From the NCBI GenBank assembly GCA_028683835.1, contig JAQUHB010000007.1, positions 1 through 64,000 on the forward strand: a DNA stretch of 64,000 bases. Reading direction: 5' to 3'. The notes under the pieces were generated by a model. It had not been told where the DNA came from. It searched no databases and was given only the letters and a program-made list of their open reading frames with translations. The stretch comes from Sulfurimonadaceae bacterium. GTDB taxonomy: Bacteria; Campylobacterota; Campylobacteria; Campylobacterales; Sulfurimonadaceae. Both the position numbers and the translations under genes were made by a program. This document shows positions 1,458-14,239 of the stretch, piece after piece; positions within the stretch are counted from its first letter, which is position 1, and each line of letters opens with the position of its first letter.

Positions 1458-3686
1458 CTATGCTTGCTCTTCGCTCTCTCTTGGAGTTTTGTTTTTACAT
1501 TTGATACATTCATAAATATCTTTGTTTCTATATACACGTGCGGCTAAAACACCGTTACAACCCTCTTCTTCACATTTATGTGTTGATGGTTCAAACTTGG
1601 AGATGAACTTACATGTAGGGTAGTTTTCACATCCCCAAAAAGCGCCTCTTCGTGATTGACGGAAAAGCAATTTCCCTCCACATTCAGGACATGGAACAGC
1701 AGATTCTTTTGTAGCCACGGCCTCAAGTGTTTTGGTGTTTTTACATTCAGGGTAGGCGCTACAAGCCAAAAATTGTCCATTACGTCCATTTTTTATGACC
1801 ATATCGCTGCCACATTTTTCACACTTTTCGTCACTTGTTGCTGAAGCTTCTATCGGTGATTTTTCTTCACCCTCTACTTGTTCTGTATATTTACATTTTG
1901 GGAAACCGCTACATGCGATAAAGTTTCCATAACGTCCAGAGCGAAGGAGGAGTTCACTGCCACATTTTGGACAGCTTTTGCCTGTAGGTTGCGCGAGTTT
2001 TGTGCTGACGATGTTCTCTTTTCCCTCTTCGATCTCTTTCATAAACGGGAAGTAAAAATCCTGCAAAGTTTTTTGCCAATCTTTTTGTCCCTCAGCAATT
2101 TCATCAAGAACCTCTTCCATATTTGCCGTAAAAGAGGCATCAACGATCTCTTTGAAGTTTTTTTCCAAGATCTCTGTGACTGTAAAAGCCATCTCTGTTG
2201 GGATTAGCTGTTTTTTTTCTACGTTTATATAAGTACGAACAGTTAAAGTGGAGATAGTCGGGGCATAAGTCGATGGACGTCCGATCCCCTCAGCTTCAAG
2301 TTTTTTGATGATAGAAGCTTCATTATAGCGAGCGGGAGGCTCAGTAAAGTGTTGCAATGGATTGATAGATTTGATATCTATTTGTTCACCCTCTTTAAGA
2401 GCTGGAAGCAATTTATCTTTATCATCAGTTCCAAGAACTTTATAAAAACCATCAAAGAGTAACTTGCGACCTGTGGCTCTATACTCGATGTTATCACTCG
2501 CAAAGGTGATACTTTGTTGCTCAAAGAGTGCATCGTTCATCTGACAAGCCATAAATCTTTCATAGATAAGTTTGTAGAGTTTTAACTCATCGGCTTTAAG
2601 ATATTTTGTGGCAATCTCTGGTGTAAAAGAGAGGATCGTCGGACGGATCGCTTCGTGCGCTTCTTGTGCGCCTTTTGATTTTTTATCGTAAGATTTTGCC
2701 TCTTTTGGAAGATATTTCTCGCCAAATCTTCGTTCAATCTCTTCACGGACTGCATCTACCGCTTCTTTTGCCATATTGAGTGAATCGGTACGCATATAAG
2801 TGATGACACCGCTTGTTCCATCAGGTGTTTTTACACCTTCATAGAGTGTCTGTGCAAGCATCATCGTTTTTTTTGGAGAGTATCCAAGTTTACTTGAAGC
2901 GGTCTGTTGCAAGGTGGAAGTCATAAATGGAGGCGGTGTTGAAGTTTTGCGCTGTTTTGTTTCAAGTGCGGCAACGATAAACTTCTCTTTTTGTATATCA
3001 GCTACGATCTTTTTCGCATCTTTTTCATTGGTGATTGAGAGTTTATCCATCTTCTCGCCAAAGTAAGAGGCAAGATTTGCTTCGATCTCTGGTTTGAAAA
3101 ATGTATCAATCGTCCAATATTCTTGAGGAATAAACGCTTTTATCTCACGTTCACGATCTACGATAATTTTAAGCGTTGATGATTGAACACGTCCTGCTGA
3201 AAGCCCTTTTTGGATTTTTGAACTTAGCAATGGAGAGAGTTTATAACCCACGATACGGTCAAGTAAACGGCGTGTTTGCTGTGCATTGACACGATCCATG
3301 TCGATAGAACGTGCAGTCTCAAGGGCATGAGTGATAGCAGTTTTTGTGATCTCATGAAAGACGATTCTTGGAAGTACTGCAGGATCTTTTTTGATAGCCT
3401 GAGCGATATGCCAACCTATTGCTTCTCCCTCGCGATCCTCATCGGTCGCGATATAGATGTTTTTTGCTTTTTTAGCTAACTCTTGTATCTCTTTGACAGT
3501 GGCGCTATTTTCTTTTGCTACGCTGTATGTCGGAATAAGCTCATTTTTTTCATCTACTGTGATTCCAAAGCGGGATTTAGGAAGGTCACGAATATGCCCT
3601 TTTGAGGCGATAACCTCATACCCCTTTCCCAAAAAGTTTTTAATTGTTCTTGCTTTGGCCGGTGATTCGACGATAATTAGATCCAA
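1458..3686 (-). CDS. topA: DNA topoisomerase I (type IA)
   Basis: Relaxes negative supercoils by single-strand passage. The 742 residues show the Toprim domain with Glu7 (VESPAKA) and the acidic TDEDREGE block at 81-88, then the catalytic Tyr297 in ITYMRTDS. The C-terminus carries three clear Cys4 zinc ribbons (from about residues 575, 620 and 665) and a fourth, looser one (CEEEGC...CIKC) near the end, the usual multi-ribbon tail of epsilonproteobacterial TopA. Length is normal. It is the first gene of the minus-strand unit that continues with the phosphodiesterase and bioB, and it is divergent from the first flagellin gene. Confidence 0.97.
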   Translation of the reverse strand: MDLIIVESPAKARTIKNFLGKGYEVIASKGHIRDLPKSRFGITVDEKNELIPTYSVAKENSATVKEIQELAKKAKNIYIATDEDREGEAIGWHIAQAIKKDPAVLPRIVFHEITKTAITHALETARSIDMDRVNAQQTRRLLDRIVGYKLSPLLSSKIQKGLSAGRVQSSTLKIIVDREREIKAFIPQEYWTIDTFFKPEIEANLASYFGEKMDKLSITNEKDAKKIVADIQKEKFIVAALETKQRKTSTPPPFMTSTLQQTASSKLGYSPKKTMMLAQTLYEGVKTPDGTSGVITYMRTDSLNMAKEAVDAVREEIERRFGEKYLPKEAKSYDKKSKGAQEAHEAIRPTILSFTPEIATKYLKADELKLYKLIYERFMACQMNDALFEQQSITFASDNIEYRATGRKLLFDGFYKVLGTDDKDKLLPALKEGEQIDIKSINPLQHFTEPPARYNEASIIKKLEAEGIGRPSTYAPTISTLTVRTYINVEKKQLIPTEMAFTVTEILEKNFKEIVDASFTANMEEVLDEIAEGQKDWQKTLQDFYFPFMKEIEEGKENIVSTKLAQPTGKSCPKCGSELLLRSGRYGNFIACSGFPKCKYTEQVEGEEKSPIEASATSDEKCEKCGSDMVIKNGRNGQFLACSAYPECKNTKTLEAVATKESAVPCPECGGKLLFRQSRRGAFWGCENYPTCKFISKFEPSTHKCEEEGCNGVLAARVYRNKDIYECIKCKNKTPRESEEQA

Positions 3687-3767
3687 ATTGTTTTCCTATA
3701 TATGTAGTATGCTACTTTTGATTTCGAAAGTGTATCAAAAAAAAATAAAATTATTTGGAATAAAAAT

Positions 3768-3794
3768 TAAAGCTTTTGCGTAGAGCACCGATAT
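3768..3794 (+). promoter_or_regulatory. Sigma-28 (FliA)-type promoter of the first flagellin
   Basis: TAAA at 3768-3771, 15 bases, then ACCGATAT at 3787-3794, against the flagellar class 3 consensus TAAA-N15-GCCGATAA. It lies 68 bases before the ATG, so a 5' leader of roughly 60 bases is expected. The leader contains a GAGAGC-AAAA-GCTCTT hairpin at 3828-3843 and a TTACATGTAA palindrome at 3842-3851 directly before the AAAGGA ribosome-binding site. Confidence 0.8.
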
Positions 3795-3841
3795 AGCTTT
3801 AATCAGCAAGGACGCTGAAAATTTTAAGAGAGCAAAAGCTC

Positions 3842-3851
3842 TTACATGTAA
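3842..3851. repeat. TTACATGTAA palindrome in the flagellin leader
   Basis: One of eight perfect copies of this 10-base palindrome in the window. It immediately precedes the Shine-Dalgarno bases of the first flagellin gene. Function unknown; see findings. Confidence 0.6.
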
Positions 3852-3862
3852 AAGGATTTACA

Positions 3863-6289
3863 ATGGGTTTCAGAATAAATACAAACGTGGGAGCACTAAA
3901 CGCTCATAACGCTGCGGTAATGAACAATAGACAAATCGATTCTTCATTAGCAAAACTGAGTTCAGGTCTTCGTATTAACACTGCTGCAGATGATGCATCA
4001 GGTCTTACGATTGCGGATTCACTTCGTTCACAAGCTTCTTCACTAGGTCAAGCGATCTCAAACGGTAACGATGCTATCGGTCTGATCCAAACAGCTGACG
4101 GTGCTTTAAGCGAATATGGTAACATTCTTGATACTATCAAAACAAAAGCAACTCAAGCTGCGTCTGATACGCAAAATACGGCTTCTCGTCAAGCGATCCA
4201 AAAAGATATCGATGCTCTTATGAAAGAGTTGAACACTATCGCAAACACGACTTCATTCAATGGTCAAAAACTTCTCTCTGGTACATACACAAATAAAGAG
4301 TTCCAGATGGGAGCGAATGCGAATGAATCTGTCAAACTAAATATTGCTTCTGCTCAAACAAGTCAGATTGGGCAAACAACTACTTCTGAGTTAGATATCA
4401 AACAATTGGGAGATAATCAGTTAACGTTGAAAAGTGCAATTACTGGTCAAAGTATTACACTGGCATCTGTAAACATTCAAAATAATAACAATACTGCAAA
4501 TGGCTTGGGCGCGTTGGCTGATGAAATGAATGCTCATAGTGGGGAGACTGGGATAAGTGCAAAAGCTGTTGTTCAAGCGACTACCGGTGCAATCACTGCA
4601 GGTACGACAGGTTCGGATTTTGCTATTAATGGTGTTAATATCGGTGCGATCAATGTATCGGCAAATGACAGCAATGGTACACTTTTAAATGCTATCAACG
4701 CTCAAACTAGTCAAACAGGTGTCACTGCTACAGCTACTACTGATGGTAAGATACAACTTACAACTGATGGTAGAGGTCTTAGTGTTACGGGAGATACGTC
4801 TCTTTTAGGTGCATCAACTCAAGATCTAACTACTATGGGGCATCTAAATGTCACACAAGCGGGTTCTTCTACATTTCAAATCGCAGGAGCTGGTTTAGGT
4901 GCGGCAGTCGGCGCAGATATTACTGTAACTGGCAGTATGACTACAATTCAGGATTCTATACTTGCGATTGGAAGTACTATTTCTTCAGGAAGTACTTTAG
5001 CAGCAGGTAGTACACTCGGTGTTGTCATAACAGCGACAGCTGGAATGGCGATGACGGCTAACTCATCTACAGCAGATTATAATTTGGCTGTCGGTTCTGT
5101 TCTTGCGCAAAGTAGTGTTATCAGTAAAGGTACTACACTGGCTTCGACAATAAACGTGGGTATAAACAGTATAAATGTTTTAAGTTCTGATATGCTTGTA
5201 AAAGCTGGGTCTTTACTTGCTTCTGGAACTGTACTTGATGCTGGTACGACGTTAAATCAAGATATATCTGCTAATGGTGTAAGTTATAAAGCAGGTACTG
5301 TATTAAATAGTGATGTGACTTTAACTTCAGCGGGTGTGACACTTTCTCAAGATATGGTTATGCATACAGATGCGAATACAGCAAATAGAAATGCTTCGAT
5401 AGCAACAGGAAGTAGTTTGCTTGCAGGAAGTATACTTGGTGCGAATATTACAATCACAGGGACATCTACACTTGCAGGGAGTATGGATCTTAAAAGTGGT
5501 AGTATTATCGCAACTGGCTCAACTATGGCTGTTGGAACAGTAGTTGGTCAAGATATAACGGTAACGGGTAGTAATCATACAACAACAGCTGTAACTGACA
5601 TGAAAGTTGGTTCTACATTAGTGTCTGCGTCTGTCGTGAAAGAAGCTTCAACAATAGGTGGTCAGCTAACAACTAATGCGGCTATGACATTAAAAGAAGA
5701 TATGGTCGTTAAAGCAGGGTCAATGCTTGCTACAGGTACTACATTGAAAGCAGGTACTGTACTTAATCAAGATTTGACTGATACACAAGTGGGCGGTGGT
5801 GCCGGTTCAGGGCTAAAAGCGGGAACGGTCTTAGGTACTGATGTTACTACAACGGCATCTATCTATCTCGCTAACGATATGACCCTCAAAAAAGATAGTA
5901 GTATTGCACAATATTCTTACTTTACAGCAAACGGCGGTGATCAAAACAGTGTTCAATTGAGTAATAATAAGTTTAGCAACTTATCTAATATAGATGTTAC
6001 AACACTTGATGGAGCTATGAAAGCGATCGATACGGTGAGTGCGGCTATTACAAACCTAGATACGATTCGTTCAGGTTTAGGTTCTGCACAAAACCAAGTA
6101 ACATCGACTATCAATAACATCTCTACAACGCAAGTAAATGTACAAGCGGCTGAATCAAACATCCGTGATGTTGACTTTGCAGCAGAGAGCGCGAATTTCT
6201 CTAAACATAATATTCTTGCACAATCAGGAAGTTATGCGATGAGTCAAGCGAATGCTGTTCAGCAAAACGTGCTTCGTTTACTACAATAG
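3863..6289 (+). CDS. flaA: Flagellin, sigma-28-type copy (808 aa)
   Basis: Major filament subunit. Residues 1 to about 175 and the last 110 or so are the conserved D0/D1 coiled-coil ends (GFRINTNVGALNAHNAA start; NILAQSGSYAMSQANAVQQ near the end). Between them sits a very long Ser/Thr/Gly-rich variable region: a flagellin-hook-IN-like part (DFAINGVNIGAINVSA, about 250) and then roughly 350 residues with a period-6 pattern, G-S/T-x-L-x-x. Typical flagellins are 270-570 residues, so this one is large. There are no Cys residues. The high Ser/Thr content fits O-glycosylation by the adjacent pseudaminic acid system. The symbol follows the Campylobacter/Helicobacter convention that the sigma-28-dependent copy is flaA; that naming is inferred from the promoter only. 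Confidence 0.95.
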   Translation: MGFRINTNVGALNAHNAAVMNNRQIDSSLAKLSSGLRINTAADDASGLTIADSLRSQASSLGQAISNGNDAIGLIQTADGALSEYGNILDTIKTKATQAASDTQNTASRQAIQKDIDALMKELNTIANTTSFNGQKLLSGTYTNKEFQMGANANESVKLNIASAQTSQIGQTTTSELDIKQLGDNQLTLKSAITGQSITLASVNIQNNNNTANGLGALADEMNAHSGETGISAKAVVQATTGAITAGTTGSDFAINGVNIGAINVSANDSNGTLLNAINAQTSQTGVTATATTDGKIQLTTDGRGLSVTGDTSLLGASTQDLTTMGHLNVTQAGSSTFQIAGAGLGAAVGADITVTGSMTTIQDSILAIGSTISSGSTLAAGSTLGVVITATAGMAMTANSSTADYNLAVGSVLAQSSVISKGTTLASTINVGINSINVLSSDMLVKAGSLLASGTVLDAGTTLNQDISANGVSYKAGTVLNSDVTLTSAGVTLSQDMVMHTDANTANRNASIATGSSLLAGSILGANITITGTSTLAGSMDLKSGSIIATGSTMAVGTVVGQDITVTGSNHTTTAVTDMKVGSTLVSASVVKEASTIGGQLTTNAAMTLKEDMVVKAGSMLATGTTLKAGTVLNQDLTDTQVGGGAGSGLKAGTVLGTDVTTTASIYLANDMTLKKDSSIAQYSYFTANGGDQNSVQLSNNKFSNLSNIDVTTLDGAMKAIDTVSAAITNLDTIRSGLGSAQNQVTSTINNISTTQVNVQAAESNIRDVDFAAESANFSKHNILAQSGSYAMSQANAVQQNVLRLLQ

Positions 6290-6326
6290 TAGTATACGTT
6301 TTTAGAAAATATCTTTTCTATTCTGG

Positions 6327-6355
6327 AAGTACGAGTCTTTTGGCTCGTACTTTTC
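6327..6355 (+). terminator. Rho-independent terminator after the first flagellin
   Basis: AGTACGAGTC, loop TTTT, GGCTCGTACT form a 10-pair stem (one G-T pair), followed by TTTTCTCTCTC. It ends the first flagellin transcript and separates it from the second promoter 60 bases downstream, so the two genes should be transcribed separately. Confidence 0.85.
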
Positions 6356-6416
6356 TCTCTCCCCCTCCTTTATTGCTTCTTTTTGATTGATTGTTTTAGT
6401 TACTTCAATTATTCCT

Positions 6417-6431
6417 TGGCACATTTTTTGC
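6417..6431 (+). promoter_or_regulatory. Sigma-54 (RpoN) promoter of the second flagellin
   Basis: TGGCAC at 6417-6422, 5 bases, TTGC at 6428-6431: an exact match to TGGCAC-N5-TTGC, with GG and GC separated by the required 10 bases. It lies 54 bases before the ATG. In Campylobacter and Helicobacter flaB is the sigma-54-dependent flagellin. Confidence 0.92.
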
Positions 6432-6485
6432 TTTTATGCCCATATTAGAACTACATGGACGTTAAACCATATAAAAGGATAAAAA

Positions 6486-8912
6486 ATGGGTTTCAGAATA
6501 AATACAAACGTGGGAGCACTAAACGCTCATAACGCTGCGGTAATGAACAATAGACAAATCGATTCTTCATTAGCAAAACTGAGTTCAGGTCTTCGTATTA
6601 ACACTGCTGCAGATGATGCATCAGGTCTTACGATTGCGGATTCACTTCGTTCACAAGCTTCTTCACTAGGTCAAGCGATCTCAAACGGTAACGATGCTAT
6701 CGGTCTGATCCAAACAGCTGACGGTGCTTTAAGCGAATATGGTAACATTCTTGATACTATCAAAACAAAAGCAACTCAAGCTGCGTCTGATACGCAAAAT
6801 ACGGCTTCTCGTCAAGCGATCCAAAAAGATATCGATGCTCTTATGAAAGAGTTGAACACTATCGCAAACACGACTTCATTCAATGGTCAAAAACTTCTCT
6901 CTGGTACATACACAAATAAAGAGTTCCAGATGGGAGCGAATGCGAATGAATCTGTCAAACTAAATATTGCTTCTGCTCAAACAAGTCAGATTGGGCAAAC
7001 AACTACTTCTGAGTTAGATATCAAACAATTGGGAGATAATCAGTTAACGTTGAAAAGTGCAATTACTGGTCAAAGTATTACACTGGCATCTGTAAACATT
7101 CAAAATAATAACAATACTGCAAATGGCTTGGGCGCGTTGGCTGATGAAATGAATGCTCATAGTGGGGAGACTGGGATAAGTGCAAAAGCTGTTGTTCAAG
7201 CGACTACCGGTGCAATCACTGCAGGTACGACAGGTTCGGATTTTGCTATTAATGGTGTTAATATCGGTGCGATCAATGTATCGGCAAATGACAGCAATGG
7301 TACACTTTTAAATGCTATCAACGCTCAAACTAGTCAAACAGGTGTCACTGCTACAGCTACTACTGATGGTAAGATACAACTTACAACTGATGGTAGAGGT
7401 CTTAGTGTTACGGGAGATACGTCTCTTTTAGGTGCATCAACTCAAGATCTAACTACTATGGGGCATCTAAATGTCACACAAGCGGGTTCTTCTACATTTC
7501 AAATCGCAGGAGCTGGTTTAGGTGCGGCAGTCGGCGCAGATATTACTGTAACTGGCAGTATGACTACAATTCAGGATTCTATACTTGCGATTGGAAGTAC
7601 TATTTCTTCAGGAAGTACTTTAGCAGCAGGTAGTACACTCGGTGTTGTCATAACAGCGACAGCTGGAATGGCGATGACGGCTAACTCATCTACAGCAGAT
7701 TATAATTTGGCTGTCGGTTCTGTTCTTGCGCAAAGTAGTGTTATCAGTAAAGGTACTACACTGGCTTCGACAATAAACGTGGGTATAAACAGTATAAATG
7801 TTTTAAGTTCTGATATGCTTGTAAAAGCTGGGTCTTTACTTGCTTCTGGAACTGTACTTGATGCTGGTACGACGTTAAATCAAGATATATCTGCTAATGG
7901 TGTAAGTTATAAAGCAGGTACTGTATTAAATAGTGATGTGACTTTAACTTCAGCGGGTGTGACACTTTCTCAAGATATGGTTATGCATACAGATGCGAAT
8001 ACAGCAAATAGAAATGCTTCGATAGCAACAGGAAGTAGTTTGCTTGCAGGAAGTATACTTGGTGCGAATATTACAATCACAGGGACATCTACACTTGCAG
8101 GGAGTATGGATCTTAAAAGTGGTAGTATTATCGCAACTGGCTCAACTATGGCTGTTGGAACAGTAGTTGGTCAAGATATAACGGTAACGGGTAGTAATCA
8201 TACAACAACAGCTGTAACTGACATGAAAGTTGGTTCTACATTAGTGTCTGCGTCTGTCGTGAAAGAAGCTTCAACAATAGGTGGTCAGCTAACAACTAAT
8301 GCGGCTATGACATTAAAAGAAGATATGGTCGTTAAAGCAGGGTCAATGCTTGCTACAGGTACTACATTGAAAGCAGGTACTGTACTTAATCAAGATTTGA
8401 CTGATACACAAGTGGGCGGTGGTGCCGGTTCAGGGCTAAAAGCGGGAACGGTCTTAGGTACTGATGTTACTACAACGGCATCTATCTATCTCGCTAACGA
8501 TATGACCCTCAAAAAAGATAGTAGTATTGCACAATATTCTTACTTTACAGCAAACGGCGGTGATCAAAACAGTGTTCAATTGAGTAATAATAAGTTTAGC
8601 AACTTATCTAATATAGATGTTACAACACTTGATGGAGCTATGAAAGCGATCGATACGGTGAGTGCGGCTATTACAAACCTAGATACGATTCGTTCAGGTT
8701 TAGGTTCTGCACAAAACCAAGTAACATCGACTATCAATAACATCTCTACAACGCAAGTAAATGTACAAGCGGCTGAATCAAACATCCGTGATGTTGACTT
8801 TGCGGCAGAGAGCGCGAATTTCTCTAAACATAATATTCTTGCACAATCAGGAAGTTATGCGATGAGTCAAGCGAATGCTGTTCAGCAAAACGTATTGAAA
8901 TTGCTACAATAG
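6486..8912 (+). CDS. flaB: Flagellin, sigma-54-type copy (808 aa), near-perfect duplicate
   Basis: Same length and architecture as the flagellin at 3863-6289. Reading the two side by side at an offset of 2623, I see identical DNA from the ATG to base 6181/8804, where a synonymous A/G change occurs, and then differences only in the last codons (first copy GTG CTT CGT TTA, second GTA TTG AAA TTG), which change one residue, Arg to Lys, four from the end. The flanks (leader, promoter, terminator) are unrelated, so this is a true second locus rather than a simple repeat of the whole unit. The name flaB is inferred from the sigma-54 promoter. Confidence 0.95.
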   Translation: MGFRINTNVGALNAHNAAVMNNRQIDSSLAKLSSGLRINTAADDASGLTIADSLRSQASSLGQAISNGNDAIGLIQTADGALSEYGNILDTIKTKATQAASDTQNTASRQAIQKDIDALMKELNTIANTTSFNGQKLLSGTYTNKEFQMGANANESVKLNIASAQTSQIGQTTTSELDIKQLGDNQLTLKSAITGQSITLASVNIQNNNNTANGLGALADEMNAHSGETGISAKAVVQATTGAITAGTTGSDFAINGVNIGAINVSANDSNGTLLNAINAQTSQTGVTATATTDGKIQLTTDGRGLSVTGDTSLLGASTQDLTTMGHLNVTQAGSSTFQIAGAGLGAAVGADITVTGSMTTIQDSILAIGSTISSGSTLAAGSTLGVVITATAGMAMTANSSTADYNLAVGSVLAQSSVISKGTTLASTINVGINSINVLSSDMLVKAGSLLASGTVLDAGTTLNQDISANGVSYKAGTVLNSDVTLTSAGVTLSQDMVMHTDANTANRNASIATGSSLLAGSILGANITITGTSTLAGSMDLKSGSIIATGSTMAVGTVVGQDITVTGSNHTTTAVTDMKVGSTLVSASVVKEASTIGGQLTTNAAMTLKEDMVVKAGSMLATGTTLKAGTVLNQDLTDTQVGGGAGSGLKAGTVLGTDVTTTASIYLANDMTLKKDSSIAQYSYFTANGGDQNSVQLSNNKFSNLSNIDVTTLDGAMKAIDTVSAAITNLDTIRSGLGSAQNQVTSTINNISTTQVNVQAAESNIRDVDFAAESANFSKHNILAQSGSYAMSQANAVQQNVLKLLQ

Positions 8913-8993: not shown

Positions 8994-10991
8994 TTACGCT
9001 AAGTAATTTTGTATTTTTGTAATATAAAGCTCTGATATTTTAAGTAGTTGTGTGACAAGGATCCTATGCATTTCACTTATGTGATGTTTTGGATTTATCA
9101 GACTTTGAGTGTTAAAAAGATCGAATATATAATTTTGCACAATGGGAAAATACTCATAGTATACTTGCGCTAGATTGGAATTTGTCTTATAATCCATGTC
9201 GCTTAGATCCCAACTTAATTGTGCTAATGTATTAAGAAACTCCTCTACAGACTTAAATTTATGTTTTTGAAATGTTAAAATAGTTTTCTTTAGTCTTTTT
9301 GCTTCAGAAATCTGATATTCGATCTGCTCTCTATCTTCCTTTGTAAAGATGGAAGAACCGATCTCAATAAAAAAACTTTTTAGCTCAGGGAAGATCTCAA
9401 TTTTGTTAATCTCGTTTAATGTATTCCAATCATAGTTTTCGATTTGTAATGGATTTGCACCCTCTAAATATGCTCCATCGCTTAAATTATAAATATTGTG
9501 ATGATCTTTTTTCAGGACTTCCGTAAAAATCTTAAACTGTTCGATTGATAGTTTGTATCCCGCTTGTGAAGGAACTAGTTCTTTTAAATTTCCAGGGATA
9601 TATTCAACTAATGCATTTGGATCTAGAGATGCTGTTTCTACGTTGATTTGACCCTTTGATTTTGCAAAATGGTCATCTCCATGAGTTTCAAGTGTCTCAC
9701 TATCTAAAGCTAGATCAATACCAAGTAGATATAGGTCTTTCGCTCCAAAAATCAAGGAAAGTGCATAAGCATACTCACCAACGCTGGGTGCAGATAATCT
9801 AGCAAACCCTTTTTTGTATGTAGTACCTTGCTCAATAAAGTGCACCTGTTCTTTTTTAAATCTATTAACCGTATCTTCATTTACGTTAGATGCAAGGATG
9901 GCATGCGTATTTTTAAAGTATACACCGGTGTCAATCCCTTCAAATAGCTTTGAAGTGTTTTCACCTGGATCGATATGTAGGACGATATCGGGTGAAATAT
10001 TGACCTTATTTAATAATCTACATGTAGACAAAGCTGATATGACTATAAATTTTTTATGATTTTGTTTAATCCATTCAATATTTTTTTGGGTTGAAGGGCC
10101 TGAAAATAACAGCAACAAAGGTTTATGGCTGAATATATTGTCTTGATGAACTTTACTTACATTTAAAAAATCAAAATTACGAGCCAAGTATTTAGGAGAA
10201 TCGATATATCTTAGCAGTATGGCACTGTAGCCATAATTAATATAGTCTTGTGAAAGAACGTACTCTTGCAGTTTTCTAAGTTGAGATGAGTAGTCTGTAA
10301 AAAATGGGATGTGTTTAATATGCAGATTATAATTATTTCCGTTATTGAGAAATTTTAAAAAGATCTCTTTTTCATTGTTGTCATCATTTGTTGTTGAAAA
10401 ATAAAAAGTCTTATCTTTAGATAGTTCTACATAATCAGTGACAAATAAGGAGAGTCTCAAGATCTCTAAATTTTGTTCTTTGACAAAAACGATTTGAGCA
10501 TTCAGTTTGTTTATAATTTTTTTGAGATGCAAGCCGAGTCCCAATCCTAAAAAAATAACTTTAGGAACTTTTTTCATGTAGCTTGTAGGCGGTGTGTATT
10601 GAGTGACATAGTTTATGATTTGAACAGTTGCCCAAAGTGAGTTGTGAAATGACAATTCACTCTTATTTATGACCTTCGCCTGCTCATCTGTCGCATATAC
10701 ATATTTCAGAGCTTTAAAAGTCCCTCCGCTTCTTTTGGTATCAACGATATCGGTCATTGCTTGTGCATGTGCAATACTGTTTTCATTATATAGATATTCG
10801 CCGCTTGCAAGTTCTTTAATATCAAAATATTTTTCGTCTTTATATTCTAGTGCATATTTTTCTATATATTGGTGCTCTTCGATCAGTGTAGAGAGAAGAG
10901 TAATTTTTTTATATAACTCCTCTTGATTTTCTTTAAAATATTGTAAATTTTTGTTGAATATATTTATCGCATTGAGTGTTATCTCATCCAT
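8994..10991 (-). CDS. Maf-family (DUF115) motility-associated glycosyltransferase
   Basis: Maf proteins transfer nonulosonic acids such as pseudaminic acid from the CMP-sugar to flagellin. The 665-residue protein has the DUF115 core around residues 285-480: LLLLFSGPSTQ, a Rossmann-like VISALSTCR block, PDIVLHIDPG, then DLYLLGIDLAL and GDDHFAKS. The N-terminal 280 residues hold a second nucleotide-binding-like segment (PKVIFLGLGLGLHL near 155). The end is helical, as in the family. It overlaps the methylase gene upstream by 8 bases and lies convergent to and right beside the second flagellin, its likely substrate. Which sugar it transfers is inferred from the pse genes nearby. Confidence 0.88.
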   Translation of the reverse strand: MDEITLNAINIFNKNLQYFKENQEELYKKITLLSTLIEEHQYIEKYALEYKDEKYFDIKELASGEYLYNENSIAHAQAMTDIVDTKRSGGTFKALKYVYATDEQAKVINKSELSFHNSLWATVQIINYVTQYTPPTSYMKKVPKVIFLGLGLGLHLKKIINKLNAQIVFVKEQNLEILRLSLFVTDYVELSKDKTFYFSTTNDDNNEKEIFLKFLNNGNNYNLHIKHIPFFTDYSSQLRKLQEYVLSQDYINYGYSAILLRYIDSPKYLARNFDFLNVSKVHQDNIFSHKPLLLLFSGPSTQKNIEWIKQNHKKFIVISALSTCRLLNKVNISPDIVLHIDPGENTSKLFEGIDTGVYFKNTHAILASNVNEDTVNRFKKEQVHFIEQGTTYKKGFARLSAPSVGEYAYALSLIFGAKDLYLLGIDLALDSETLETHGDDHFAKSKGQINVETASLDPNALVEYIPGNLKELVPSQAGYKLSIEQFKIFTEVLKKDHHNIYNLSDGAYLEGANPLQIENYDWNTLNEINKIEIFPELKSFFIEIGSSIFTKEDREQIEYQISEAKRLKKTILTFQKHKFKSVEEFLNTLAQLSWDLSDMDYKTNSNLAQVYYEYFPIVQNYIFDLFNTQSLINPKHHISEMHRILVTQLLKISELYITKIQNYLA

Positions 10992-11616
10992 TCTTAACCT
11001 TTTTTTCCATTAAAAACCATGTTAAATCTCCTTGTAAAAACATAGGGTCACGATGGTATACAAAGCCATAATCAACAAGTTCTAAATCTGGATAAGTATC
11101 CAAAATTTCACCTGCAAAATCGCGTTTATACATTTTTTCGCTATGACCTCTATATGAGATCTCCATAGGTGATGGATTGTAATACTCAATGACACATATA
11201 TAACGGCGACTTGCATTATACATGGTTGCATAAACTTGAGGTAGCATGGTTGGCTCAAGATGAATTAAAACACCTTTTGAAAATATGAAGTCACTTTGTG
11301 TATCGGGTATAAAATCTAAAATTGATTGGTGATAGACATTGAGGGTATCTATTTTCTTAAGCTCTTCAACTGCTTTGCTATTGATCTCAATGGCATTTAA
11401 TTCTGCTTCAGGCAACAAGCTTTTAAGAGCATGAATGTTCATCCCGATATTTGCGCCAAATTCTATTACCGAGGTCACATTTTTAGTTCGTTTTAATATT
11501 GCGGAAAAAAGTGCAAGATTAGAAGCTAATAACCAAGAATCCTTATTCCTAGCAATGTATTCATCGCCAAATTCTCCAGCCCAAAACGCTTCTTGCTCAG
11601 TTTTATATTTTTTCAT
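10984..11616 (-). CDS. Pseudaminic-acid-biosynthesis-associated SAM methyltransferase
   Basis: A class I methyltransferase of 210 residues. The SAM-binding motif VIEFGANIGMN is near residue 50, an acidic strand end (LNAIEIN) near 75, and the DFIFSKGVLIH motif near 110. The whole matches the small methylase family that travels with pseudaminic acid genes (TIGR03587-like). The modified position, O- or N-methylation of the nonulosonic acid or a precursor, is unknown. It starts at ATG with GTGGGATGATCT in front and is coupled by an 8-base overlap to maf. Confidence 0.82.
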   Translation of the reverse strand: MKKYKTEQEAFWAGEFGDEYIARNKDSWLLASNLALFSAILKRTKNVTSVIEFGANIGMNIHALKSLLPEAELNAIEINSKAVEELKKIDTLNVYHQSILDFIPDTQSDFIFSKGVLIHLEPTMLPQVYATMYNASRRYICVIEYYNPSPMEISYRGHSEKMYKRDFAGEILDTYPDLELVDYGFVYHRDPMFLQGDLTWFLMEKKVKNG

Positions 11617-11649
11617 AGATCATCCCACTAGCAAATTTAAATTAAATCA

Positions 11650-11664
11650 GCAACAATCATTCCA
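11650..11664 (-). promoter_or_regulatory. Weak sigma-54-like site before the methylase-maf pair
   Basis: On the minus strand TGGAAT-GATTG-TTGC keeps the essential GG and GC with 10 bases between, but matches TGGCAC only in TGG and one A. It lies 34 bases before the methylase ATG. The spacing and flagellar context favour it; the imperfect -24 element is against it. Confidence 0.35.
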
Positions 11665-11724
11665 TCAAAAGAAAATTATGATATTGATTTCCACTCTTGA
11701 TTTTTACTGATAATAATTTGAAAA

Positions 11725-11895
11725 TTATATGGAACACTCATCGTAAGTAGGTATATGTTTTTGTATTAAGTTATATCTATATAATGCTTTTTGCTCATCT
11801 TCCCAATGAACGGCAGCAAGAGTATCAGCACCAAACTTATCTATCGAGAGATTATATATTTCAAGAGCATTTTTATTGATTTCTTTAAATTTCAT
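11725..11895 (-). pseudogene. Truncated N-terminus of a class I methyltransferase (56 aa)
   Basis: A 56-codon frame starts at an ATG that overlaps the end of the acetyltransferase gene by 11 bases (ATG inside the GAACATGAAATTTAA end) and stops with TAA at 11725-11727. The sequence, with DTLAAVHWEDEQKALYRYNLI in its middle part, resembles the segment just before motif I in some SAM methyltransferases, but the glycine-rich motif itself is missing. I read it as the stump of a last operon gene cut short by deletion. It could instead be a genuine small protein. Confidence 0.5.
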
Positions 11896-12946
11896 GTTCA
11901 ACCACTGATTTGAATTTTGCTATTTTCTGAAGAAGTAACTCTTTATCAAAAAATTTTATCCCCTGCATTTGTTGCGTTATTTCCACTCCCATTCCCCTTT
12001 TAAAGTGGGAGATACTTAGTTCTTTTTCATCGGCATAATTGTCAAAGCCATCTATGTTATTGAAGCTGCATGGTTGTCCAAAGCCTAAAGTTTTGAAATT
12101 TTTGGCTTTAAAGTACAGGATCGCGTTCCACAGTAGATAGTGGTTAAGTTGTAAATCTTTGAACTCTTCATGCGTATCGTAAGCACTACTGGCATAGAGT
12201 ACATTTATATCATCATGAAAAAAATAATTTGTTATCAGAATTTTTTCATTATATTTGACAGCAATAATCGAAGCTTTATTATCTACTATAAGATTTAGTT
12301 GTTTGTTGTAAATAGTATCTGATTTTGGTATTTTTCCAGCATTTATCATGTGGATCTTATGGAATAAAACGTATTGTTCATGTAACTCTAAGAAATTGCT
12401 TGTATCGGAATATTCGATCTGTAATAGATGGTTTTTACGAAATGAGTTTATAAGGGCTTTGTAGCTTTTTCTTAAATTCATCCACAGCTGTTCTTGAGTG
12501 TTTTGTAGATCAATGGTACATGTATGATTTGTCGTGTCGACAAAATTATAAGCTAAAAGTATGTTATATCTGTTCTTATCAAAAGGTGATAGTCTAAAGT
12601 AGATTGTTGCAATATTTAACTCTAAAGCCAGCTTATTTATGGTGTCAAAGATAAACTTTTCGTTTTTTGGACTATTTGCCAACGGTGCGACGGTATAGCC
12701 GCCTGTAATTGAGACAGAGAGTTTTTCATCGATTTTTTCAATGGGCAAAAAACAGATCCCGACACATCTGTTATCTTGTTCTAAAACAAAACTCTTGTCT
12801 AAAAAAAGGTTTGTAGTTGTTGATAGATAATATTCCAACAGCGGTAATGAATAATTAAAATCTACGTTATTTTTAAGGACATATTGATCCCATAGGCGTT
12901 TGTAATGGCTTTCATCTTGATCTTTAAATATCAATTTTATTGACAT
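11885..12946 (-). CDS. FemAB/GNAT-like N-acyltransferase
   Basis: 353 residues with the two-lobed layout of FemAB-type GNAT proteins: an N-terminal lobe with SFVLEQDNRCVGICFLPI, a central NLRKSYKALINSFRK segment typical of the family, and a C-terminal lobe with HYLLWNAILYFKAKNFKTLGFG. Relatives add amino-acyl or acyl groups to amino sugars or peptides. Placed after the aminotransferase and oxidoreductase in the pse operon, it plausibly acylates an amino group on the flagellar sugar. Starts one base after the aminotransferase stop; the exact substrate is not shown by sequence. Confidence 0.65.
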   Translation of the reverse strand: MSIKLIFKDQDESHYKRLWDQYVLKNNVDFNYSLPLLEYYLSTTTNLFLDKSFVLEQDNRCVGICFLPIEKIDEKLSVSITGGYTVAPLANSPKNEKFIFDTINKLALELNIATIYFRLSPFDKNRYNILLAYNFVDTTNHTCTIDLQNTQEQLWMNLRKSYKALINSFRKNHLLQIEYSDTSNFLELHEQYVLFHKIHMINAGKIPKSDTIYNKQLNLIVDNKASIIAVKYNEKILITNYFFHDDINVLYASSAYDTHEEFKDLQLNHYLLWNAILYFKAKNFKTLGFGQPCSFNNIDGFDNYADEKELSISHFKRGMGVEITQQMQGIKFFDKELLLQKIAKFKSVVEHEI

Positions 12947-14239
12947 CTATACTAGCTCCGCTCTGTTTTCCCAAACTTTCACGAAAGCGGCCACGACATC
13001 ATCCATATCCGCTTCACTCATCCCCGGCCGCATCAGTTCATGAGTGATGAGCAGGTCATAGTGCAGTCTTTCGCAGACCGGACAGTCTCCTTTTTTATAT
13101 TCTCTATCGCTCAAAGAAAAAGGGTACTCTCCAAAGCAAATTTTTTCTTGATAAAGAGGTTGTAAATAGAGAGGTTTTACATAGCCGTAACTAAGAAGTA
13201 CGGCACTATCATCACGCATAATTGTTGGCGGGAGTTCCGCTTTCACGGCATCCATAAATCTGTTTCTATGGATAGAAGCTACCTCTTCGTTAAAAAGTAA
13301 AGGGTGGATATAGTAAACATGCTCACAGTCTTCTCTAACAGGAGGTATAGTTAAAAAAGGAAGTTCTCTTAACTTCTCCTCTAAATACCTGACATTTTTC
13401 ACTCTCTCTTCTGCTAGATCTTTGAGTTTAGTCAATTGCACACTGGCTATGGCTGCTTCTATCTCAGTCATTCTATAGTTAAAACCCAACATGTTATTGA
13501 GTTCATTTTTATCTTTGTACCCTTTGGCACTGAGCACTGACTCGGCGTGATTACGAATAAGTTGTACTTTGAATGCCAATTCATCATCATCTGTGACGAC
13601 GATTCCACCTTCGCCACTGTGGATATGTTTATGGTAGTTAAGAGAAAAGACCCCTATATCACCAAGTGTTCCTGCAAATTTACCATTATATTTTGCATAC
13701 GGTGCTTGGGCTGTATCTTCGATGATCTTCAAATCATGTCTCTTGGCGATCTCGCGTAAAGCTTTGAAGTCGCTTGCCTGACCAAAGATATCTACAGCCA
13801 TGATCGCTTTTGTCTTGCTTGTGATCTTACTCTCGACGGATTTTGGATCGATGCAAAAATAGTTTTCTTCAATATCTGCAAATACGGGTATCCCTCCATA
13901 GAGAAGTATTGCAGTCGCACTTGCGCTCATGGTATAGGGTGAGACTATCACTTCATCTCCGGGATTGATCCCGATGGCACCGACTGCCGCATAAAGTCCC
14001 GATGTCGCGGAGTTTACGCTGATGGCATGCTTTACGCCAAAGAAATCGGCCCACTCTGCCTCTAAAGCTCTTACCTCGTTTCCTCCGTAAAAATCTGTAT
14101 GCCATGAGCCGATATATGTGGAAAGTTTTCCGCTTCTAAGCACTCTTAGAACGGCTTCCTCTTCTTGTACGCCGATGGTATTATAAGCAGGAAATGGTGT
14201 TTCTCTTAATTTTTTGCCGCCGTTGATCGCGAGTTTCAT
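12947..14239 (-). CDS. DegT/DnrJ/EryC1-family sugar aminotransferase
   Basis: PLP-dependent transaminase of 430 residues, longer than most (about 370-400). The PLP-binding Lys is Lys204 in SLNYHKHIHSGEGG; EDTAQAPYA near 174 and the PYTMSASA block near 101 are the other PLP-site segments. The family converts keto-sugars to amino sugars using glutamate. It differs clearly from PseC in the same window, so it serves another step or another sugar. It overlaps the Gfo/Idh gene by 4 bases; dehydrogenase plus DegT pairs elsewhere make 3-amino sugars, which is a reasonable but unproved guess here. A CPVC pair near residue 383 is unusual for the family. Confidence 0.85.
   Translation of the reverse strand: MKLAINGGKKLRETPFPAYNTIGVQEEEAVLRVLRSGKLSTYIGSWHTDFYGGNEVRALEAEWADFFGVKHAISVNSATSGLYAAVGAIGINPGDEVIVSPYTMSASATAILLYGGIPVFADIEENYFCIDPKSVESKITSKTKAIMAVDIFGQASDFKALREIAKRHDLKIIEDTAQAPYAKYNGKFAGTLGDIGVFSLNYHKHIHSGEGGIVVTDDDELAFKVQLIRNHAESVLSAKGYKDKNELNNMLGFNYRMTEIEAAIASVQLTKLKDLAEERVKNVRYLEEKLRELPFLTIPPVREDCEHVYYIHPLLFNEEVASIHRNRFMDAVKAELPPTIMRDDSAVLLSYGYVKPLYLQPLYQEKICFGEYPFSLSDREYKKGDCPVCERLHYDLLITHELMRPGMSEADMDDVVAAFVKVWENRAELV

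Follow-up and report, generated by a model that had tools for sequence, protein, structure and literature searches.

Many bacteria keep two flagellins for reasons described as mostly unknown (PMC6299084), and in Campylobacter jejuni the benefit of regulating the two separately is described as yet to be unravelled (PMC5126078). The same question is raised by two neighboring flagellin genes in the 64-kb stretch of DNA analysed here (the window), whose proteins differ at one position and amount to a natural experiment. Because the copies differ at a single residue, any division of labor between them must stem from the promoter, the 5′ leader, or that residue. Taken as a whole, the locus is very probably best explained as a flaA–flaB pair with early supply from a sigma-54 promoter, late supply from a sigma-28 promoter, a brake in one leader, and repeated gene conversion.

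The tandem pair and its promoters

The two genes are adjacent and co-oriented, and each encodes a protein with Flagellin_N and Flagellin_C domains (Table 1). They are mismatched at 8 of 2427 nt (99.67% nucleotide identity), a count from which a few differences could be masked by assembly, as the source genome is a draft (88 contigs, 2.51 Mb) and the copies share a 2.3-kb perfect repeat. The mismatches fall at ORF positions 2319, 2409, 2410, 2412–2415, and 2418, seven of the eight within the final 19 nt. The sole amino-acid change is R805K, leaving the proteins 99.9% identical, in agreement with the original prediction of a single differing residue. With FliA, FlgM, and two RpoN genes in the same genome, the pair is a standard Campylobacterota flaA–flaB early/late tandem pair, a known kind that follows a Campylobacter-like logic. 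The rpoN genes of the source genome (G000) lie at C66:45298-45759 and C5:25673-26125.

Table 1. Features of the flagellin locus, numbered along the window.
Feature	Positions	Strand	Basis or remark
Sigma-28-type promoter TAAA-N15-ACCGATAT of copy 1 (flaA type)	3768-3794	+	Read directly; same element before the first copies of tandem pairs
Leader hairpin SL1, UCAGC-AAGGAC-GCUGA, ANGGA in loop (CsrA-type site)	3803-3818	+	Predicted fold; covariation
Second leader hairpin, GAGAGC-AAAA-GCUCUU	3828-3843	+	Predicted fold; similar inverted repeats there in many sigma-28 leaders
Hairpin UGUAAAAGGAUUUACA holding the copy 1 Shine-Dalgarno	3847-3862	+	Predicted fold; stem letters change in step between lineages
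Flagellin copy 1 (flaA type, likely late)	3863-6289	+	808 aa, C-terminal end VLRLLQ
Codon 805 of copy 1, CGT = Arg, paralog mark	6275-6277	+	
9-bp perfect stem AAGTACGAG/CTCGTACTT then TTCTCTC, candidate terminator between the two units	6327-6352	+	Read directly
Sigma-54 −24/−12 promoter TGGCAC-N5-TTGC of copy 2 (flaB type)	6417-6431	+	Exact match; kept before the second copy in 49 pairs
Flagellin copy 2 (flaB type, likely early)	6486-8912	+	808 aa, C-terminal end VLKLLQ
Codon 805 of copy 2, AAA = Lys, paralog mark	8898-8900	+	
Maf-type (Maf_flag10_N / MptE-like) flagellin glycosyltransferase, convergent neighbor	8994-10991	-	Pfam PF20157 and PF01973

Copy 1 is preceded by a sigma-28-type element, with TAAA at 3768–3771 and, after 15 nt, ACCGATAT at 3787–3794. 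Copy 2 is preceded by an exact sigma-54 element with GG-N10-GC spacing. The latter is the only exact match to TGGCAC-N5-TTGC in the window, with both strands scanned, and one of 8 in the 2.51-Mb genome; at that genome-wide rate, the probability of a match within the 196-nt spacer is about 3 × 10−4, so a chance occurrence is unlikely. The stem that follows copy 1 is a possible terminator separating the two units, and was not called by a terminator scan.

Related loci were collected from 151 genomes of the same family, searched with the first 170 residues of the flagellin, and from 298 genomes of the class, searched with the N-terminus of C. jejuni FlaA; the pairs were then extracted from both. 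A contig scan with the full 808-aa protein as query returned no match, and one with an alignment as query returned 80 loci, mostly from Helicobacter and Sulfuricurvum. In 49 tandem pairs from Sulfurimonadaceae, Campylobacter-like, and other Campylobacterota genomes, the sigma-28-type copy comes first and the sigma-54-type copy second. As sequence matches, both promoter types of the original prediction are real, and each keeps its placing across the class. Whether related pairs differ in their proteins or only in their promoters, which the prediction had left to comparison, has a divided answer: the promoters of these pairs are always split, whereas protein identity within them varies from about 70 to 99.9%. 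Since the same promoter split accompanies this whole range, the promoter division is old, and the near-identity of the proteins is variable and derived. Two loci, L067 and L068, break the order and have sigma-28-type elements before all copies.

Leaders and the probable order of supply

The original prediction traced any distinct role of the copies to timing and dose. This is too narrow, as the two transcripts also carry distinct 5′ leaders, which likely adds a translational layer. The copy 1 leader is predicted to form three hairpins (−17.2 kcal/mol, z = −3.7), and the copy 2 leader is unremarkable on folding (z = −0.9). Two of the copy 1 hairpins are of the CsrA-type, with ANGGA in the loops and one covering the ribosome-binding site, and the predicted folds of copy 2 largely lack them. 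Among 32 leaders, SL1 covaries with 12 double-change cells compared to 5.3 in shuffles, a value reached by 0 of 500 shuffles. A single search for the middle hairpin across sigma-28 leaders is confounded by the Shine-Dalgarno hairpin, so the Shine-Dalgarno and upstream GGA hairpins were counted separately. Sigma-28 leaders contain the former (stem of at least 5 bp) in 68% of cases and flank shuffles in 3.6%; for the latter (at least 4 bp) the values are 76% and 5% of shuffles. In sigma-54 leaders, the two hairpins occur in 6% and 33%, respectively. Rfam matches over 3600–6600 were all below threshold.

The arrangement resembles that of C. jejuni flaA, whose two-site leader binds CsrA with a Kd of ~50 nM, compared to >350 nM for flaB, or about seven-fold weaker (PMC4894983). 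The source genome carries csrA and two fliW genes. The copy 1 leader is most likely a translational brake, with CsrA as its putative effector, that copy 2 would largely escape. The fliW genes are found on contigs C47 and C52. Within the genus of eight genomes, those with two flagellin matches (G000, G016, G030, and G046) each have two fliW genes and G038, with one match, has one; G052 and G058, where a contig end or an open frame truncates the single flagellin match, have two each. That fliW number tracks flagellin number is only suggestive with so few genomes.

Early and late expression of the two copies is likely from their promoters. If the pair works like those of C. jejuni (PMC7332011) and Shewanella putrefaciens (PMC6299084), synthesis from the sigma-54 copy is expected to precede completion of the hook, and synthesis from the sigma-28 copy to follow the export of FlgM. 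Copy 2 would most likely fill an early flagellin pool that builds the hook-proximal filament. Export of FlgM would then free sigma-28, and copy 1, its translation subject to an additional CsrA/FliW-type brake in the leader, would supply most of the filament.

Of the known systems, C. jejuni is similar in its tandem order, with sigma-28 first and sigma-54 second, in its CsrA-type flaA leader, and in its near-identical proteins (PMC7332011, PMC5126078, PMC4894983). The contrast that had been drawn with Campylobacter on the last point is misplaced, as C. jejuni FlaA and FlaB are themselves 95% identical. The present pair differs in its 99.9% identity, its 808-aa length and longer outer domain, the extra leader hairpin between the two GGA hairpins, and the second fliW gene. 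In C. jejuni, FlaB is basal and forms stiffer filaments than FlaA, and the differences between the two are mostly in D0 and D1 (PMC7332011). Helicobacter pylori likewise has a late major FlaA and a basal minor FlaB, but their D2/D3 regions are only 43% identical (PMC12880188). In S. putrefaciens, a FliA-independent early flagellin is at the base and a FliA-dependent late one follows, with separate promoters setting the order; however, naming and order are reversed and the proteins are 86% identical (PMC6299084), from what is considered a separate duplication (PMC7332011).

Probable gene conversion and the likeness of the copies

In a tree built on the conserved flagellin ends, with the last five codons left out, both copies from a genome group together as sisters in 34 of the 49 genomes, and the promoter class has to switch 41 times along the flagellin gene tree. 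Because the copies are so often sisters, repeated gene conversion appears to be the best and simplest explanation of within-pair identity, although independent duplications may have taken its place in some lineages. Conversion would keep both coding regions near-identical while sparing three things: the promoter, the 5′ leader, and the last ~20 nt with the R (late) or K (early) residue. Among fifteen equal-length pairs that are >95% identical, the last 33 nt hold 100 of the 467 differences, where about 9 are expected. Perfect tracts begin at or near the start codon in several near-identical pairs, and in L042, L045, L052, L055, and L070 they extend for 1.4 to 2.4 kb and stop 14–20 nt before the gene end.

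The high identity could instead reflect youth, with a very recent tandem duplication in this lineage having landed the second copy behind a sigma-54 promoter. The 99.67% nucleotide identity and the sister placement are what such an event would leave, but it is very unlikely given that the order and both promoter types are found in 49 pairs of several families, some only 70–80% identical. These pairs also share the R/K mark and the types of leader, and independent duplications would have to arrive at this whole set of features each time. Furthermore, pairs of the same genus (L054, L056, and L061) are 85–90% identical, which points to the pair being older than its identity.

It is highly improbable that the likeness is an assembly artefact, in which the assembler used one repeat consensus twice and the true copies in the cell are less similar. 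An 88-contig draft with a 2.3-kb perfect repeat is open to this error, and the most identical pairs are mainly in draft genomes. However, the flanks differ, the differences are cleanly clustered at one end, and the pairs L043, L047, L071, and L072 reach 94–99% within-pair nucleotide identity on long contigs. For C. jejuni, flaA–flaB recombination has been put forward (discussed in PMC5126078), and the pair could be a recombination reserve for antigenic or phage-receptor variation in place of an early/late supply. This is very improbable, since conversion here erases difference and does not spread it, and the promoters, leaders, and R/K tail remain distinct in most lineages.

The residue that separates the copies

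Each alignment column was scored in bits for its power to tell sigma-28 copies from sigma-54 copies. Position 805, the fourth residue from the C-terminus (−4), scores 0.88 bits over the 49 pairs, with 0.19 for the next best column; the values within the family are 0.82 and 0.15 (31 pairs). Sigma-28 copies have R in 49 of 49 and sigma-54 copies have K in 44, S in 3, and R in 2, counts that are not independent as the pairs come from related genomes. The mark thus holds in 47 of the 49 pairs (44 R/K and 3 R/S), and the partition extends to the Campylobacter-like pairs, a further f3 genus, and one f5 genome. The codons vary within each residue class, with AGA, CGT, or CGA for R and AAA or AAG for K, so it is the amino acid that is conserved.

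Arginine and lysine are chemically close, and the original prediction had ruled structure out of any distinct role. That is unsafe, as the lone differing residue is a class-wide early/late mark adjoining the FliS-bound C-terminal tail. C. jejuni FlaA without its last ten residues no longer binds FliS (PMC5466977). In the crystal structure of H. pylori FliS–FlaB, residues of FliS bond to FlaB Leu512 and Leu513 (PMC7248283), which by the numbering used here are the two residues directly after the R/K-equivalent position. A role in chaperone hand-over or core packing, perhaps at the FliS-bound tail, is plausible from the position of the residue, and it may weakly be suggested that the residue tunes chaperone and export steps or early filament packing.

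Selection probably acts on the amino acid itself to maintain the residue. A fuller reading, offered tentatively, is that it is a selected early/late address tag, acting through FliS, the export gate, or packing at the hook–filament junction, and held apart while gene conversion erases other paralog differences. Somewhat less likely is that R and K differ as a side effect of the point at which conversion stops, the last 15–20 nt being too near the end of homology. Conversion often stops near such ends, and the differences concentrated in the final 33 nt of near-identical pairs include synonymous ones, so retention may be partly mechanical. On the other hand, there has been turnover at neighboring synonymous sites and within the R/K codons, with the residue class unchanged (49/49 R, 44/49 K), and R, K, and S are each tolerated somewhere, so that drift would have mixed the classes.

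Helicobacter FlaB copies are an exception to the partition: they mostly have R, often differing in the last residue instead (T/S vs. Q), and K is therefore not required everywhere. Further exceptions are the L042 and L077 pairs, where R is present in both members, and L068, with a third copy that combines K with a sigma-28-type element upstream. L068 (G014:C23:286800-293800) holds three tandem flagellins, all behind sigma-28-type elements, the second and third with the same upstream sequence; its sigma-54 promoter seems to have been replaced. In L042 (G144:C105:5600-12500), a pair that is 99.6% identical, the second copy has R in place of K and follows a degenerate sigma-54 element (TGGAACAATAGATGC) and a leader similar to that of copy 1; the pair is possibly losing its division of labor.

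The R/K partition is not reported in the parts of the open-access papers searched, and it appears to be new, together with the contrast between the two leaders, both being features seen at the level of sequence. That a single remaining residue separates early from late copies across a class is surprising, and it makes the vague question of why two flagellins are kept testable by a single-residue swap.

The outer domain of both flagellins (aa 330–700, window 4850–5962) has a six-residue periodicity, with an autocorrelation peak at 6 and recurring AGTVL/AGSTL motifs. It matches a left-handed beta-helix family weakly (PF25084, 23.8 bits, below the family cut-off), and a single-sequence fold of the central domain is poor (pLDDT 41). 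The long outer domain may be a beta-solenoid. Downstream of the pair, a convergent block on the minus strand (8994–14239) encodes the Maf-type glycosyltransferase, a methyltransferase, and a DegT-type aminotransferase, and is likely a flagellin glycosylation region.
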